Positions 1 through 44,226 of a stretch of 46,650 bases of DNA are shown piece by piece. Position 1 is the stretch's first letter. Each line of letters begins with the position of its first letter. A program made the translations under genes and the position numbers. The DNA lies in assembly GCA_951801955.1 (NCBI GenBank), contig CATOOV010000021.1:1-46650 (forward strand), given 5' to 3'. The DNA is from an uncultured Lachnospiraceae bacterium. GTDB taxonomy: Bacteria; Bacillota; Clostridia; Lachnospirales; Lachnospiraceae. The notes beneath the pieces were generated by a model that was not told the DNA's origin, made no database searches, and worked only from the letters and a program-made list of their open reading frames with translations.

Positions 1-150
1 GGAAATTTCCTATATGAGAAAAGCCTTCCAGGCAGGATGCGCACGCGCACAAGGGAAAATTGTCACTCCGTGACGGTGCGCGGCGCGGGAACAAAAGATG
101 CGTTGGCAAAAGTAATTGCTCACGGGAGTGCGTGAAACGCACTTTTGTTC
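1..150 (+). repeat. Structured intergenic repeat, copy 1 (left edge cut)
   Basis: This is the first of two tandem copies with a period of 168 bp. Position 1 falls inside the right arm of stem-loop 1. Stem-loop 2 has arms GTCAC (62-66) and GTGAC (70-74), with an outer stem from the CGCGCAC / GTGCGCG blocks. Stem-loop 3 is closed by GAACAAAAG and CTTTTGTTC (142-150) and contains a second hairpin, GTGCGT-GAA-ACGCAC. It differs from copy 2 at only a few positions, so the duplication is recent. The function is unknown. Confidence 0.85.
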
Positions 151-320
151 TCATATAGGAAATTTCAACGAAATTTCCTATATGAGAAAAGCCTTCCAGG
201 CAGGATGCGCACGCGCACAAGGGGAAATTGTCACTCCGTGACGGTGCGCGGCGCGGGAACAAAAGATACGTTGGCAAAAGTAATTGCTCGCGGGAGTGCG
301 TGAAACGCACTTTTGTTCTC
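151..320 (+). repeat. Structured intergenic repeat, copy 2 (complete)
   Basis: This is a complete element. Stem-loop 1 pairs TCATATAGGAAATTT with AAATTTCCTATATGA, stem-loop 2 has arms at 230-234 and 238-242, and stem-loop 3 is closed by GAACAAAAG/CTTTTGTTC. It ends one base before the stop codon of guaB (322, minus strand), so guaB transcripts would read into it as a 3' hairpin array. Whether it acts as a terminator, an RNA stabiliser or a mobile element cannot be told from the sequence. Confidence 0.85.
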
Positions 321-321
321 T

Positions 322-1776
322 TTACTCATCCATGCTGTAGTTGGGAGCCTCTTTGGTGATATGGATGTCATGGGGATGGCTTTCCCTTAAGGAAGCAGCA
401 GAGATCTTAACAAATTTTCCTGTTTCTTTTAGGGTTTCTATGTTGACAGCTCCACAGTAGCCCATACCAGAACGAAGCCCGCCTGTCAATTGGAAAACGG
501 TGTCTTCCACAGAACCTTTATAGGCAACCCGTCCTTCCACGCCTTCTGGCACTAACTTCTTGGCGTCTTGTTGGAAATAGCGGTCTTTGGAGCCGTTTTC
601 CATAGCGGCAAGGGAGCCCATGCCCCGATATACTTTGTATTTTCTGCCCTGGTACAGCTCAAAAGTTCCTGGGCTTTCATCACATCCTGCAAGGATGCTT
701 CCCATCATACATACATTGGCGCCTGCCGCAATTGCTTTGGTCATGTCTCCAGAATATTTAATGCCGCCGTCTGCAATGACAGGGATGCCATAGTCTTTTG
801 CAACGTCATAACAATCCATAATGGCAGTGACCTGAGGTACGCCAATACCAGCGACAATACGGGTCGTACAGATGGAACCAGGTCCAATCCCTACTTTCAC
901 AGCATCTGCGCCAGCTTCAATCAGCGCTTTTGCAGCAGCGCCTGTTGCAATATTCCCTGCAATCACCTGCAGGTCGGGAAATGCTGCCTTAATCTTTTTC
1001 AGAGCTTCTATAATATTTTTGGAATGGCCGTGTGCCGAATCCACCACGATAACATCCACTTTCGCTTTTACCAGCGCGTCTACACGTTCCATCATATTTG
1101 CCGTGATGCCTACGCCTGCGCCACACAGCAGCCTGCCTTGCCCATCTTTTGCCGACAGTGGATATTTGATTTGTTTTTCGATATCTTTAATGGTGATCAG
1201 GCCTTTTAAGTTAAAATTGTCATCTACAATAGGAAGTTTCTCTTTTCTTGCTTTTGCCAAGATTTTTTTTGCCTCTTCTAAAGTAATGCCTTCCTTTGCC
1301 GTTACAAGTCCTTTGGAGGTCATGGAATCTTTGATTTGTTTGGAAAAATCCTCTTCGAATTTTAAGTCGCGGTTTGTGATAATCCCTACCAGTTTGCCCC
1401 CCTCTGTAATGGGTACGCCGGAAATGCGGTATTTTGCCATAAGGTTGTCTGCATCCTGCAGGGTGTGTTGCGGAGAGAGAGAAAATGGATCTGTGATAAC
1501 GCCGTTCTCAGAACGTTTTACCTTATCAACTTCCTCAGCTTGTGTCTCGATTGACATATTTTTATGAATGATTCCAATGCCGCCTTGACGTGCCATAGCG
1601 ATTGCCATTCTGTGCTCAGTAACCGTATCCATACTTGCACTCATCATGGGAATGTTTAATTTCACTTTTTTAGTCAAATTAGTAGATAAGTCTACCATGT
1701 TCGGTGTAACTTCTGAGTATGCAGGAACTAACAACACATCATCAAATGTAATTCCTTCGCCGATAATTGTACCCAT
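322..1776 (-). CDS. guaB: IMP dehydrogenase
   Basis: This enzyme oxidises IMP to XMP with NAD+, the committed step of guanine nucleotide synthesis, in the cytoplasm. The 484-residue length is normal for the family. It has an N-terminal barrel part starting [15 protein letters not shown], a pair of CBS domains at about 95-215, and the loop GPGSICTTR with catalytic Cys303. An upstream in-frame extension exists, but I start at 1776 because AGCGAGG precedes that ATG and a clear promoter lies just upstream. The gene is monocistronic, faces away from hisA, and its stop codon abuts a structured repeat. No purine riboswitch is visible in the short leader. Confidence 0.97.
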
Positions 1777-1822
1777 TTTTTTTCCTCGCTTTCTTTTAAG
1801 TGTTTTTAATGTTATTCCCTCG

Positions 1823-1851
1823 ATTTTAACAAAAAAAAAATAGGCTGTCAA
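1823..1851 (-). promoter_or_regulatory. Sigma-A type promoter of guaB
   Basis: Read on the minus strand, the -35 is TTGACA (1846-1851) and the -10 is TAAAAT (1823-1828), with a 17-bp spacer holding a run of ten T. This predicts transcription from about 1815 and a leader of roughly 40 bases, too short for a riboswitch. Confidence 0.8.
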
Positions 1852-1959
1852 CGACTGGCAGAGACTTATCAGAAATTTTGTTTATCACTTTTACTACTAA
1901 ATATAGTTAGGAGAACTTATAAAAGAAAGGAAAATTTTTGCAGCGTCCCCTAAGGGTAA

Positions 1960-1988
1960 TTGAAAAATAAGGACAAATATGATATGCT
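1960..1988 (+). promoter_or_regulatory. Probable promoter of the hisA-glnA group
   Basis: TTGAAA (1960-1965) and TATGCT (1983-1988) are 17 bp apart. The -10 matches consensus at four of six bases, so this is moderate evidence. Transcription would start near 1995 and give a leader of about 115 bases that contains the paired hairpins at 2004-2097. Confidence 0.45.
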
Positions 1989-42523: not shown

Positions 42524-42549
42524 AAAATTGGTGAAATCAGAGAAAATAG

Positions 42550-42578
42550 TTGCTACCATTTCAAAAAAGAACTATAAT
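42550..42578 (+). promoter_or_regulatory. Promoter of the PrsA-like gene
   Basis: TTGCTA (42550-42555) and TATAAT (42573-42578) have a 17-bp spacer. The leader of about 125 bases shows no clear fold. Confidence 0.75.
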
Positions 42579-42711
42579 AATGCTAAATGTGTCTGAAATA
42601 CGGCAGAAACACTGTTACAGCGCAAATTACTGCGACGGAACATAGTTGCAATTCATTTTGCAGGAATGGGCAGTAACAAGGAATTATAAAAGAAATACAC
42701 AGGAGGATGTT

Positions 42712-43926
42712 ATGAAGGCAAAGAGATTACTGGCTTTGTTATTGGCTGCAACATTGGGAGTGTCGGCATTGACAGGATGCGGCAGCGGTATTGATGAAAA
42801 TAAGGTGGGGGCAACCCTGGATCAACAGGAAATTTCCCTTGGGTTTATGAATTTTATGGCGAGATACCAGCAGGCAATTTATGATGGGCAGTTTGGCGCC
42901 ATGTTTGGAGATAATTCGGATATATGGTCCCAGGATTTGTTTGGAGAGGGGACAGATACAGAGACTTCTGTCAAGAAAAATGTGGCAGAGAGCATTGAGG
43001 AATTTTATCTACTGGAAAAACATATGGCGGATTATAAAGTGGAAGTGACAGAGGATGAACTTGCAGCCATGGACGAAGCCGCTGAGAAGTTTATGAAAGA
43101 CAATAGCAAAAAAGCGATCAGCCAGATGGGAGCCACAAAGGAATATGTGAAGGAGATGCTTCGGCTGAATACAATCCAGTCAAAAATGCGCGCTGCAATT
43201 ATTGCAGATGTAGATACCAAAGTCAGCGATAAGGAGGCGGCACAGAAGACCATCAGTTATGTGAGTGTAAACAGTAAATCCACCACGGACGAGGAGGGCG
43301 AGACCAAGGAATATACAGAAGAAGAAAAGAAAAATATAAAAAAAGAAGTGGAAGATTTCAGAAAGTCTGCTAAGGAAGATTTTGAAGGGGCGGCAGAGAC
43401 GGCGGGATATTCGGTTTCCAATTACTCCTATGGTGAGAATGATGAAGATACTACCTTGGATGAAGCGGTGATAAAAGCGGCGAATAAACTGAAAGACGGC
43501 GAGGTCAGTAAAGTGATCAGCACAGACGACAGTTTTTATGTGGTACACATGGACAGTACGTTTGACAAGACGGCAACAGAAACCAAGAAGCAGTCCATTG
43601 TCCAGGAACGGCAGAACGACCGTTATACGGAAGTTTGCGACGAATATAAAAAAGATGTAAAATACGAACTGAACGAGGAGGAATGGGCAAAAGTCAAGTT
43701 TGACGAGCTGTTTACCATAAAGCAGCAGCAAACCACCGAAAATACAGAGGGTGAAGAAACCTCTGGCGAGGAAGAATCTTCTGAAAACGCAGAGGATACG
43801 GAAGGCGAAGATACTTCAGACAGTGAAGAAAGCCCTATAGATGAAGAGAACGCCGATGGAGAAGAAACTTCTGAAGATGAACAGAACACAAATGAAGAAG
43901 AATCTTCTGACAAAGATAAGGAATAA
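42712..43926 (+). CDS. PrsA/SurA-like foldase lipoprotein with acidic tail
   Basis: The 404-residue protein has a lipoprotein signal with lipobox ALTGC (Cys near 24), a SurA-N-like helical region (about 45-175), and a short parvulin-like stretch (about 245-300, AANKLKDGEVSKVISTDDSFYVVHMD). The last 65 residues, from about 342, are almost only Glu, Asp, Ser, Thr, Asn and Gly, a disordered acidic tail. It is related to the shorter lipoprotein at 17188 and likely helps secreted proteins fold at the outer membrane face. AGGAGG precedes the ATG at 42712; the longer reading is unsupported. Confidence 0.85.
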   Translation: MKAKRLLALLLAATLGVSALTGCGSGIDENKVGATLDQQEISLGFMNFMARYQQAIYDGQFGAMFGDNSDIWSQDLFGEGTDTETSVKKNVAESIEEFYLLEKHMADYKVEVTEDELAAMDEAAEKFMKDNSKKAISQMGATKEYVKEMLRLNTIQSKMRAAIIADVDTKVSDKEAAQKTISYVSVNSKSTTDEEGETKEYTEEEKKNIKKEVEDFRKSAKEDFEGAAETAGYSVSNYSYGENDEDTTLDEAVIKAANKLKDGEVSKVISTDDSFYVVHMDSTFDKTATETKKQSIVQERQNDRYTEVCDEYKKDVKYELNEEEWAKVKFDELFTIKQQQTTENTEGEETSGEEESSENAEDTEGEDTSDSEESPIDEENADGEETSEDEQNTNEEESSDKDKE

Positions 43927-44011
43927 TCCGCTGTTGGCAGAAGATATCAGATGGGAGACTTCCCAATCAGCAAGAAGTAAGTAATAAATTTGTGGATGGT
44001 ACAAAACAGGA

Positions 44012-44058
44012 GAGGGTATGAGAGACGGAGCAATACCGTCTCCTTATCCTCTTTTTTT
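44012..44058 (+). terminator. Two-tier terminator after the PrsA-like gene
   Basis: GAGGGTA/TATCCTC (44012-44018 with 44045-44051) and GAGACGG/CCGTCTC (44022-44042) stack into one long stem with a run of seven T. Repeat copy 6 starts at the end of the T-run. The stretch 43927-44011 shows nothing else. Confidence 0.88.
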
Positions 44059-44226
44059 CTCATATAGGAAATTTCGAAAAAATTTCCTATATGAGAAAAG
44101 CCCTTCGGGCAGGGTGCGCACGCACACAAGTGGAAAATTATTGCTGAGCAATAGTGCGCGTCGCGGAACAAAAGATGCGTTAGCAAATAACTTGGTCGCG
44201 AGAGTGCGTGAAACGCACTTTTGTTC
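44058..44226 (+). repeat. Structured intergenic repeat, copy 6 (complete)
   Basis: Stem-loop 1 pairs TCTCATATAGGAAATTT with AAATTTCCTATATGAGA. Stem-loop 2 has arms ATTGC (44140-44144) and GCAAT (44148-44152), where copies 1 and 2 have GTCAC/GTGAC. Stem-loop 3 is closed by GAACAAAAG (44166-44174) and CTTTTGTTC (44218-44226). It is the copy closest to copies 1 and 2 overall. Downstream, 44227-44300 has small hairpins but no clear promoter for apbE. Confidence 0.85.

Follow-up and report, generated by a model that had tools for sequence, protein, structure and literature searches.

What are the folded intergenic repeats that stand at six places in contig C21 (CATOOV010000021.1) of an uncultured Lachnospiraceae bacterium: mobile DNA, or a structured RNA whose fold is kept for a function? 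The window, i.e., the whole stretch of DNA analysed, is this entire contig of 46,650 nucleotides. An original prediction made from the letters alone had described a six-copy family of three-stem elements with compensatory changes, perhaps akin to a miniature inverted-repeat transposable element (MITE), to a repetitive extragenic palindrome (REP) or bacterial interspersed mosaic element (BIME), or to a structured RNA. All six places were read, their limits were re-checked on the sequence, and the family was searched for in related genomes. We favour, with a probability of roughly 55%, the reading that the copies are non-autonomous structured mobile DNA elements working like single-strand transposable elements of the PATE (palindrome-associated transposable element) type. 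Genomes, contigs and loci are referred to below by G, C and L numbers.

Structure and Paired Changes of the Element

The predicted common order of stems was borne out at all six places, with corrected limits. The six copies and the features directly attached to them are the following:

1..150, forward strand: copy 1, placed by its sequence; stem 1 is cut by the contig end, and stem 3 is of class A (GAACAAAAG...CTTTTGTTC)
151..318, forward strand: copy 2, complete, 168 nt, head to tail directly against copy 1 (...CTTTTGTTC followed at once by TCATATAGG...)
26397..26572, forward strand: left portion of the other repeat family that hosts copy 3, placed by sequence and homologues
26573..26756, forward strand: copy 3, with a class B stem 3; the cut is ambiguous by the 8 nt TTTGTTTC common to both junctions
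26757..26866, forward strand: right portion of the repeat interrupted by copy 3, placed by sequence and homologues
27644..27695, forward strand: hairpin GGCAAGCCC...GGGCTTGCC (family D8), which recurs as stem 3 of copy 4
about 27701..27860, forward strand: copy 4, with stem 1 TATAT/ATATA and stem 3 TAAAGC..GGCAAGCCC...GGGCTTGCC..GCTTTA; the usual GTTC end is absent
36232..36316, forward strand: copy 5, truncated after stem 2; its stem 1 arm (TATCA/TGATA) lies directly behind a T-tract
44060..44226, forward strand: copy 6, complete, 167 nt, with a T-tract immediately before it

The fold runs from stem 1 (core TAGGAA/TTCCTA) through an A-rich linker, which holds a small GC hairpin in some copies, and a helix enclosing stem 2 (GCGCAC with GTGCGC) to stem 3, which ends in ..CTTTTGTTC in class A and in ..CCCACTTTGTTC in class B. 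The motif GCGCACAAGGG, formerly taken for a separate box, is really the 5′ strand of the helix closed by GTGCGCGGCG around stem 2, and the outermost bases once assigned to the stem 1 arms (TTTC, TTTT) are, to judge from the tandem junctions, flanking DNA. The element is usually about 158–182 nt long, with medians of 158 nt in the window's own genome and 182 nt in other genomes (copies with a recognised 3′ end, 69/80 and 101/143, respectively). The 51-nt hairpin GGCAAGCCC...GGGCTTGCC flanks copy 4 on both sides (27644-27706 and 27802-27864), alone upstream and as stem 3 downstream.

Stem 2 reads GTCAC/GTGAC in copies 1 and 2 and ATTGC/GCAAT in copies 4–6, as had been stated, and is imperfect in copy 3 (GTTGC/ACAAT); the four outer-arm pairs of stem 1 listed in the original prediction are also correct. 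For 38 core copies, RNAalifold predicted 21 pairs, 7 of them changed on both sides. In this alignment, 95.9% of the paired cells can pair, against 88.7% in shuffles, and the covariation score is 0.219 against 0.097, with 0/500 shuffles as high in either case; the covariation signal is lost when partners are slid. Numbers of double-change pairs (67/500 shuffles) and of pair types (173/500) did not exceed those of shuffles of the same alignment.

Since MAFFT misplaces the outer arms, arms were counted from fixed anchors. Perfect five-base outer arms of stem 1 were present in 190 of 223 parsed copies, with 19 arm types; the parsed set comprises 80 own copies (of 142 matches in the window's genome) and 143 copies from other genomes, at least one own copy (L414) having been parsed twice. 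Permutation of partners served as the control, because the parser required some arm pairing and so favoured paired copies. At the 3′ end, a Watson–Crick run of at least 7 pairs in stem 3 was found in 98 of the 170 copies with a recognised 3′ end, compared to 2/170 when shuffled; the same test allowing G-U pairs did not discriminate (155/170 vs. 127 shuffled). The outer-arm changes are truly paired, and both the arm counts and the shuffle tests uphold a family that is dispersed and in which the paired changes of stems 1 and 2 are real.

Insertion and Comparison of Sites

Copy 3 interrupts another repeat. Among 12 homologues of that repeat examined in the same genome, six read through at the junction (on C13, C61, C38, C32, C4 and C142), one (L443) continues with a different sequence and five have no junction match. 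Copy 3 is a discrete insertion. Its junction is ambiguous by eight bases common to the target and the element end, and no target duplication is evident at this one insertion. Elsewhere, copies abut head to tail without extra bases. The short unit holds no transposase, as had been noted, and its behaviour as a mobile element is supported. The two ends, compared by eye, show no terminal inverted repeats (5′ end TCTTATAGG/TCATATAGG against the reverse complement of the 3′ end GAACAAAG/GAACAAAAG), and the classical MITE was rejected on this ground. The sequence around copy 3 is itself a second dispersed repeat of ~290 nt (26397-26572 plus 26757-26866), whose copies are up to about 90% identical in the genome and numerous in G014.

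A comparison of G026 with G027, covering 15/51 and 15/52 of their copies, gave 12 pairs at the same site and 6 unpaired copies. Four unpaired loci were followed; L171, L177, L180 and L185 showed, in turn, patchwork exchange, a 56-nt deletion, a diverged and partly decayed copy, and the same site spacing in both genomes. At the L171 site, the two genomes are nearly identical around the element and differ by blocks within it, a pattern such as exchange with another copy would leave; at the L177 site, the deletion lies between two ATGCGCA repeats within the element. Similarity at L169/L170 breaks off beside a second, truncated copy, like a rearrangement point. G026 and G027 are listed as separate in a one-per-species set, and their 12 matched loci are 99.2–100% identical. 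The orthologous site behind raiA was alignable in 2/28 genomes of the same genus, neither with an intact copy; since possible remnants are present in both, these were not used as empty sites.

Distribution across Genomes

Allowing 2 mismatches at most, the box pattern gave 160 matches in the window's genome and 1 for a reversed control. A covariance model (R1) built from 38 copies of this genome, which may miss distant relatives, found at least 142 copies there at E≤1e-4, a lower bound because only 143 candidates were scored. The presumed family of six is therefore far larger. Across the genus, R1 matched 26 of 29 genomes, with 862 matches in all and 0–142 per genome; three of the 29 (G001, G008 and G021) have no copy at E≤1e-4 and several others only 1–3. 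At the family level, with 20 candidates scored per genome, 49 of 200 sampled genomes matched, 21 of them with a single match. A copy can be recognised at 15 of 18 new family-level loci inspected, in many cases with arms that are quite different yet complementary, and at three none is seen. A pattern scan of named genomes returned at least 105 stretches, and the 80 listed come from Lachnospiraceae isolates or metagenome-assembled genomes, some of which bear the name Eubacterium, Roseburia or Clostridia; the listed matches include Eubacterium sp. 14-2 as well as Lachnospiraceae bacterium A2 and 3-1. The original prediction had named missing covariation and confinement of copies to this locus set as contrary outcomes; neither appeared in the covariance-model searches, shuffle tests and arm counts.

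Where the genome was known and the 3′ end recognised, the nearest relative lay in the same genome for 87/109 copies (1000 shuffles: mean 44, maximum 63), i.e., for 66/68 in G000 and 21/41 elsewhere. Gene conversion could contribute to this clustering. Five G015 copies on five contigs align at a normalised score of 0.94–0.97, and such close similarity suggests fairly recent activity. Transfer on phages or plasmids was rejected: one 221-base query (a G015 copy) had no match at E≤1e-5 among 50,697 phage records and 72,556 plasmid records, and the exact pattern matched one viral contig, inside an open reading frame (ORF) and with the stems absent. Several contig ends, in G010, G011 and G025 and in the window, fall within a copy or beside one, and the element thus probably breaks assemblies. 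Literature searches, with most subscription journals outside their coverage, returned no earlier description of the element.

Location and Orientation

The 5′ flanks of 153 solo copies contain 67–92% T at positions −7 to −12 and are richer in G at −16 to −19. Within the 50 nt upstream, a hairpin at least as stable as −8 kcal/mol was found for 103/118 solo copies and 43/118 control stretches, and a T-tract for 81/118 and 18/118, respectively. By crude ORF calls, the upstream gene is on the same strand in 74/99 copies and on the opposite strand in 25/99; 11 more copies lie inside ORF calls. Copies in G010 and G002 (L119, L138, L139 and L152) follow a common terminator-like hairpin ending in GCAGGATTCTTTCTTG, apparently another repeat family. 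A motif like TATAGGATTCGGGTGTCAAAAG (complement CTTTTGACACCCGAATC) stands beside several copies, at the loci L443 (G000:C44), L027, L028, L043, L007, L119 and L146, and is perhaps another small repeat with a similar end.

The orientation of copies follows replication in the two chromosomes examined. On contig C1 of G026, copies switch strand at dnaA (3.51 Mb): 17/18 are consistent within 1 Mb without any fit, and 48/50 follow the replication direction with one fitted terminus, the two arcs being unequal. On contig C1 of G003, which holds 34 of that genome's 58 matches, 30/34 fit one switch point, dnaA being on another contig. Neighbouring ORFs agree with replication in only 36/50 (G026) and 22/40 (G003) cases.

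Pairing between the 3′ Arm and the Flank

Tandem junctions suggest that the unit begins five bases before TAGGAA, so that base 6 outward belongs to the neighbour or target. Position 6 forms a Watson–Crick pair with the facing base of the 3′ arm in 30/46 own solo copies (15.5 expected) and 67/107 other solo copies (40.5 expected), with 0/2000 permutations as high in either set. Pairing at position 7 was seen in 33 own (27.1 expected) and 87 other (83.6 expected) solo copies, and at position 9 in 32 (26.3) and 72 (71.3). Where the rare guide C stands at position 9 (GAACA), the flank base opposite is G in 12/15 copies, compared to 54/208 for other guides (p=4e-5). GAACA guides at TGTTC flanks span the stem 1 types TATAT, TCATA, TTCTA and TCTTA, most being TATAT and probably one lineage. 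At least 10 contiguous pairs can form in 67/153 solo copies, while shuffled flanks gave a mean of 30 and a maximum of 40 in 500 trials.

Flank pairing may mean either that matching targets are chosen or that the palindrome is corrected afterwards. Correction between arms of imperfect palindromes is known in bacteria, and copying from arm to arm would make the 3′ arm complement the upstream DNA. The patchwork exchange at the G026/G027 site speaks for such correction, as does a joint difference at N and N′ between L122 and L125, two similar copies of G015 (N being the variable flank base and N′ its facing arm base). It is harder to reconcile with a large excess at position 6 only, positions 7 and 9 showing small ones, and with GAACA guides at TGTTC flanks in four stem 1 types, though correction could also yield the latter. 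We regard correction as the source of the pairing as a possibility of some weight, on balance improbable.

Neighbouring Genes and Other Features of the Window

A Pfam search with 10 window proteins showed that ordinary genes adjoin the copies. Copy 2 is followed by an IMP dehydrogenase, copy 4 by a phosphoribosyltransferase/PRPP-synthetase-like protein and copy 5 by an SH3/fn3 protein; an S30AE ribosome-associated protein lies between copies 3 and 4, and a PpiC-type isomerase, preceded by an Mfd-like helicase, stands upstream of copy 6. Two very long ORFs (2022 and 1196 aa) at 7488-17172 contain repeated DNA within and between both.

No match at the gathering threshold was obtained with Rfam 15 in the window, the group II models included. 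Sub-threshold matches to a microRNA family (36222-36275) are probably due to the palindrome, and the single sub-threshold group II match lies far from the copies. A weak match to Ysr141 (34.6 bits, threshold 196) at 40872-41063 on the reverse strand, inside the Mfd-like gene, is probably due to chance.

Discussion

In the mechanism that we propose, the element would transpose single-stranded and folded, entering the lagging-strand template. Stem 1 would supply the guide with its A-rich 3′ arm (N′AAAAA), which would pair with the target, a T-tract plus N; as the element end TTTGTTC resembles the target, new copies could also land against old ones. The mobilising enzyme would act in trans, and paired arm changes would be kept by selection for the hairpin, aided by copying between arms and exchange between copies.

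Several observations weigh against this reading. Y1_Tnp (PF01797) was unmatched in G004, G010, G014, G019, G025 and G027, which hold 35–106 copies each, and matched in all three zero-copy genomes; the element's ends were found on both sides at 0/30 Y1 loci examined (TnpB-only elements not covered). The group II maturase domain PF08388 was unmatched in copy-rich G000, G004, G010 and G019 and in others. Copy 3 is the only demonstrated insertion, no second event having been found, and none of the four unpaired G026/G027 loci followed is a fresh insertion (L192 and L196 were not followed). The gene directly upstream is on the element's strand in 22/24 loci; for this reason, terminator direction explains part of the polarity, and replication and gene direction as its causes are not fully separated. 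Tandem copies have no position 6 excess (28 vs. 28.2 and 21 vs. 20.4 expected), the base there being nearly always C, and position 6 is not a Watson–Crick pair in 56/153 solo copies. The proposed guide lies 3′ of the hairpin, unlike that of IS200/IS605, which is 5′ of the hairpin foot according to the excerpts of PMC6006769 consulted. Same-genome clustering is weak outside G000, and permutation and Fisher values are too optimistic because copies are related.

The mobiliser search was confined to Y1 and group II maturase domains and did not extend to integrases, other reverse transcriptases or further HUH proteins. Y1_Tnp was also unmatched in five other genomes with fewer copies or poor completeness and was matched in copy-rich G000, G002, G003, G006, G015 and G026; of the three G015 matches, two have internal stop codons and the third lies near a contig end. 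A single element copy stands some 200 bp away from the Y1 gene at locus L359, and 11/30 Y1 loci contain isolated matches of 10 letters, with up to 1 mismatch, to the element 3′ end. PF08388 is present in copy-rich G002, G003, G015, G026 and G027, weakly in G014 and G025, and in zero-copy G001 and G008; zero-copy G021 has no match. G000 is only 88.8% complete; G004, listed as 99%, has 72 copies and neither domain.

A tentative alternative is a new class of transposase-less element, family-wide (apparently in the Lachnospiraceae), whose re-writable guide would pair with the terminator T-tract across the junction near transcript ends, and which would be moved by neither Y1 nor a group II reverse transcriptase, possibly by host replication or an unrecognised factor.

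It is rather doubtful that the copies form a true REP-like or IS605-derived family whose Y1 enzyme has meanwhile disappeared or is encoded in DNA missing from the assemblies, so that movement was the same and the enzyme is now missing in many hosts. The end hairpins, mostly extragenic location and replication polarity would fit, and the excerpts of PMC3119063 consulted describe Haloquadratum elements that differ between strains though nearly all IS200-type transposases there are pseudogenes. The expected GTAG/GTGG foot 5′ of the hairpin was not found, the 5′ flank being T-rich plus a variable base, and none of the 30 Y1 loci has both ends. The similar G015 copies suggest fairly recent activity, though G015 has Y1 matches. 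A REP/BIME element, another of the original suggestions, was rejected in the form tied to a Y1 transposase of the RAYT (REP-associated tyrosine transposase) kind, with six copy-rich genomes lacking a Y1 match and all three zero-copy genomes having one.

We consider it unlikely that the copies are retro-elements mobilised by a group IIC intron-type reverse transcriptase. Group IIC introns target a terminator hairpin with short base pairing and leave no target duplication. The terminator-like hairpin and T-tract upstream, the flank complementarity and the replication-linked orientation recall this system, and several copy-rich genomes have the maturase domain. Group II retromobility was rejected, as no group II catalytic core was matched in the window by Rfam at threshold, and PF08388, other kinds of reverse transcriptase not having been searched, is missing from the four copy-rich genomes named above and present in two of those without copies.

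A functional structured RNA or transcription-linked element (e.g., an RNA 3′ end or leader), spread by duplication and kept for its fold, would account for a conserved multi-helix fold with paired changes in other genera too, yet it has no direct support and is very improbable: Rfam gave no match at threshold, three genomes of the genus hold no copy at E≤1e-4, and most solo copies stand behind a terminator-like hairpin beside genes in all orientations.

If mobile single-strand elements of the PATE type are the correct reading, the 862 matches in 29 genomes of the genus are one mobile family with a simple base-pairing landing rule at gene ends. This would explain the strong strand polarity of the repeats and some assembly breaks in these genomes, as well as compensatory stems, which an RNA search might wrongly take for functional RNA; the absence of a mobiliser becomes a testable problem.

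Known systems share parts of this picture. BOX elements of Streptococcus pneumoniae are modular, structured intergenic repeats, and their likeness to the element is drawn from their general description, with no sequence comparison. Group IIC introns also find targets behind terminator hairpins by short base pairing; the element differs in having no matched ribozyme core and no reverse transcriptase in the unit.

Like REPs with their RAYT/TnpA-REP enzymes, the element consists of extragenic palindromes in single and clustered copies (PMC6006769). By the same excerpts, REPs need a GT[AG]G foot, which the element lacks; several of its copy-rich genomes have no Y1, and it has three helices and about 160–180 nt, compared to 21–65 nt. 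Elements of the IS200/IS605 family (IS608, ISDra2) likewise have a hairpin at each end, an interaction between guide and target bases such as is proposed for the element, and an end that resembles the target motif, and their lagging-strand insertion (PMC6006769) is matched by the element's polarity, which is partly confounded with gene direction. Unlike them, the element has no transposase, its guide-like bases are 3′ rather than 5′ of the left hairpin, and the pairing continues from the stem.

PATEs of Haloquadratum walsbyi are described in the excerpts of PMC3119063 as having no terminal inverted repeats, palindromes near their ends and no target duplication, and as being too short for a transposase. 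In PATEs as in the element, terminal inverted repeats are lacking, palindromes lie near the ends, copies are many, the 5′ end carries a short targeting sequence and no mobiliser is evident. The element has three of the defining traits, i.e., no terminal inverted repeats, palindromes near both ends and a length that leaves no room for a transposase. The palindromes of PATEs are akin to IS605-type ends, whereas the element's ends match no examined Y1 element; the element would therefore work like a PATE and yet is not filed as one. Compared to PATEs, it has in addition a conserved middle helix, a frequently terminator-linked position and a 3′ arm that pairs with the flank.

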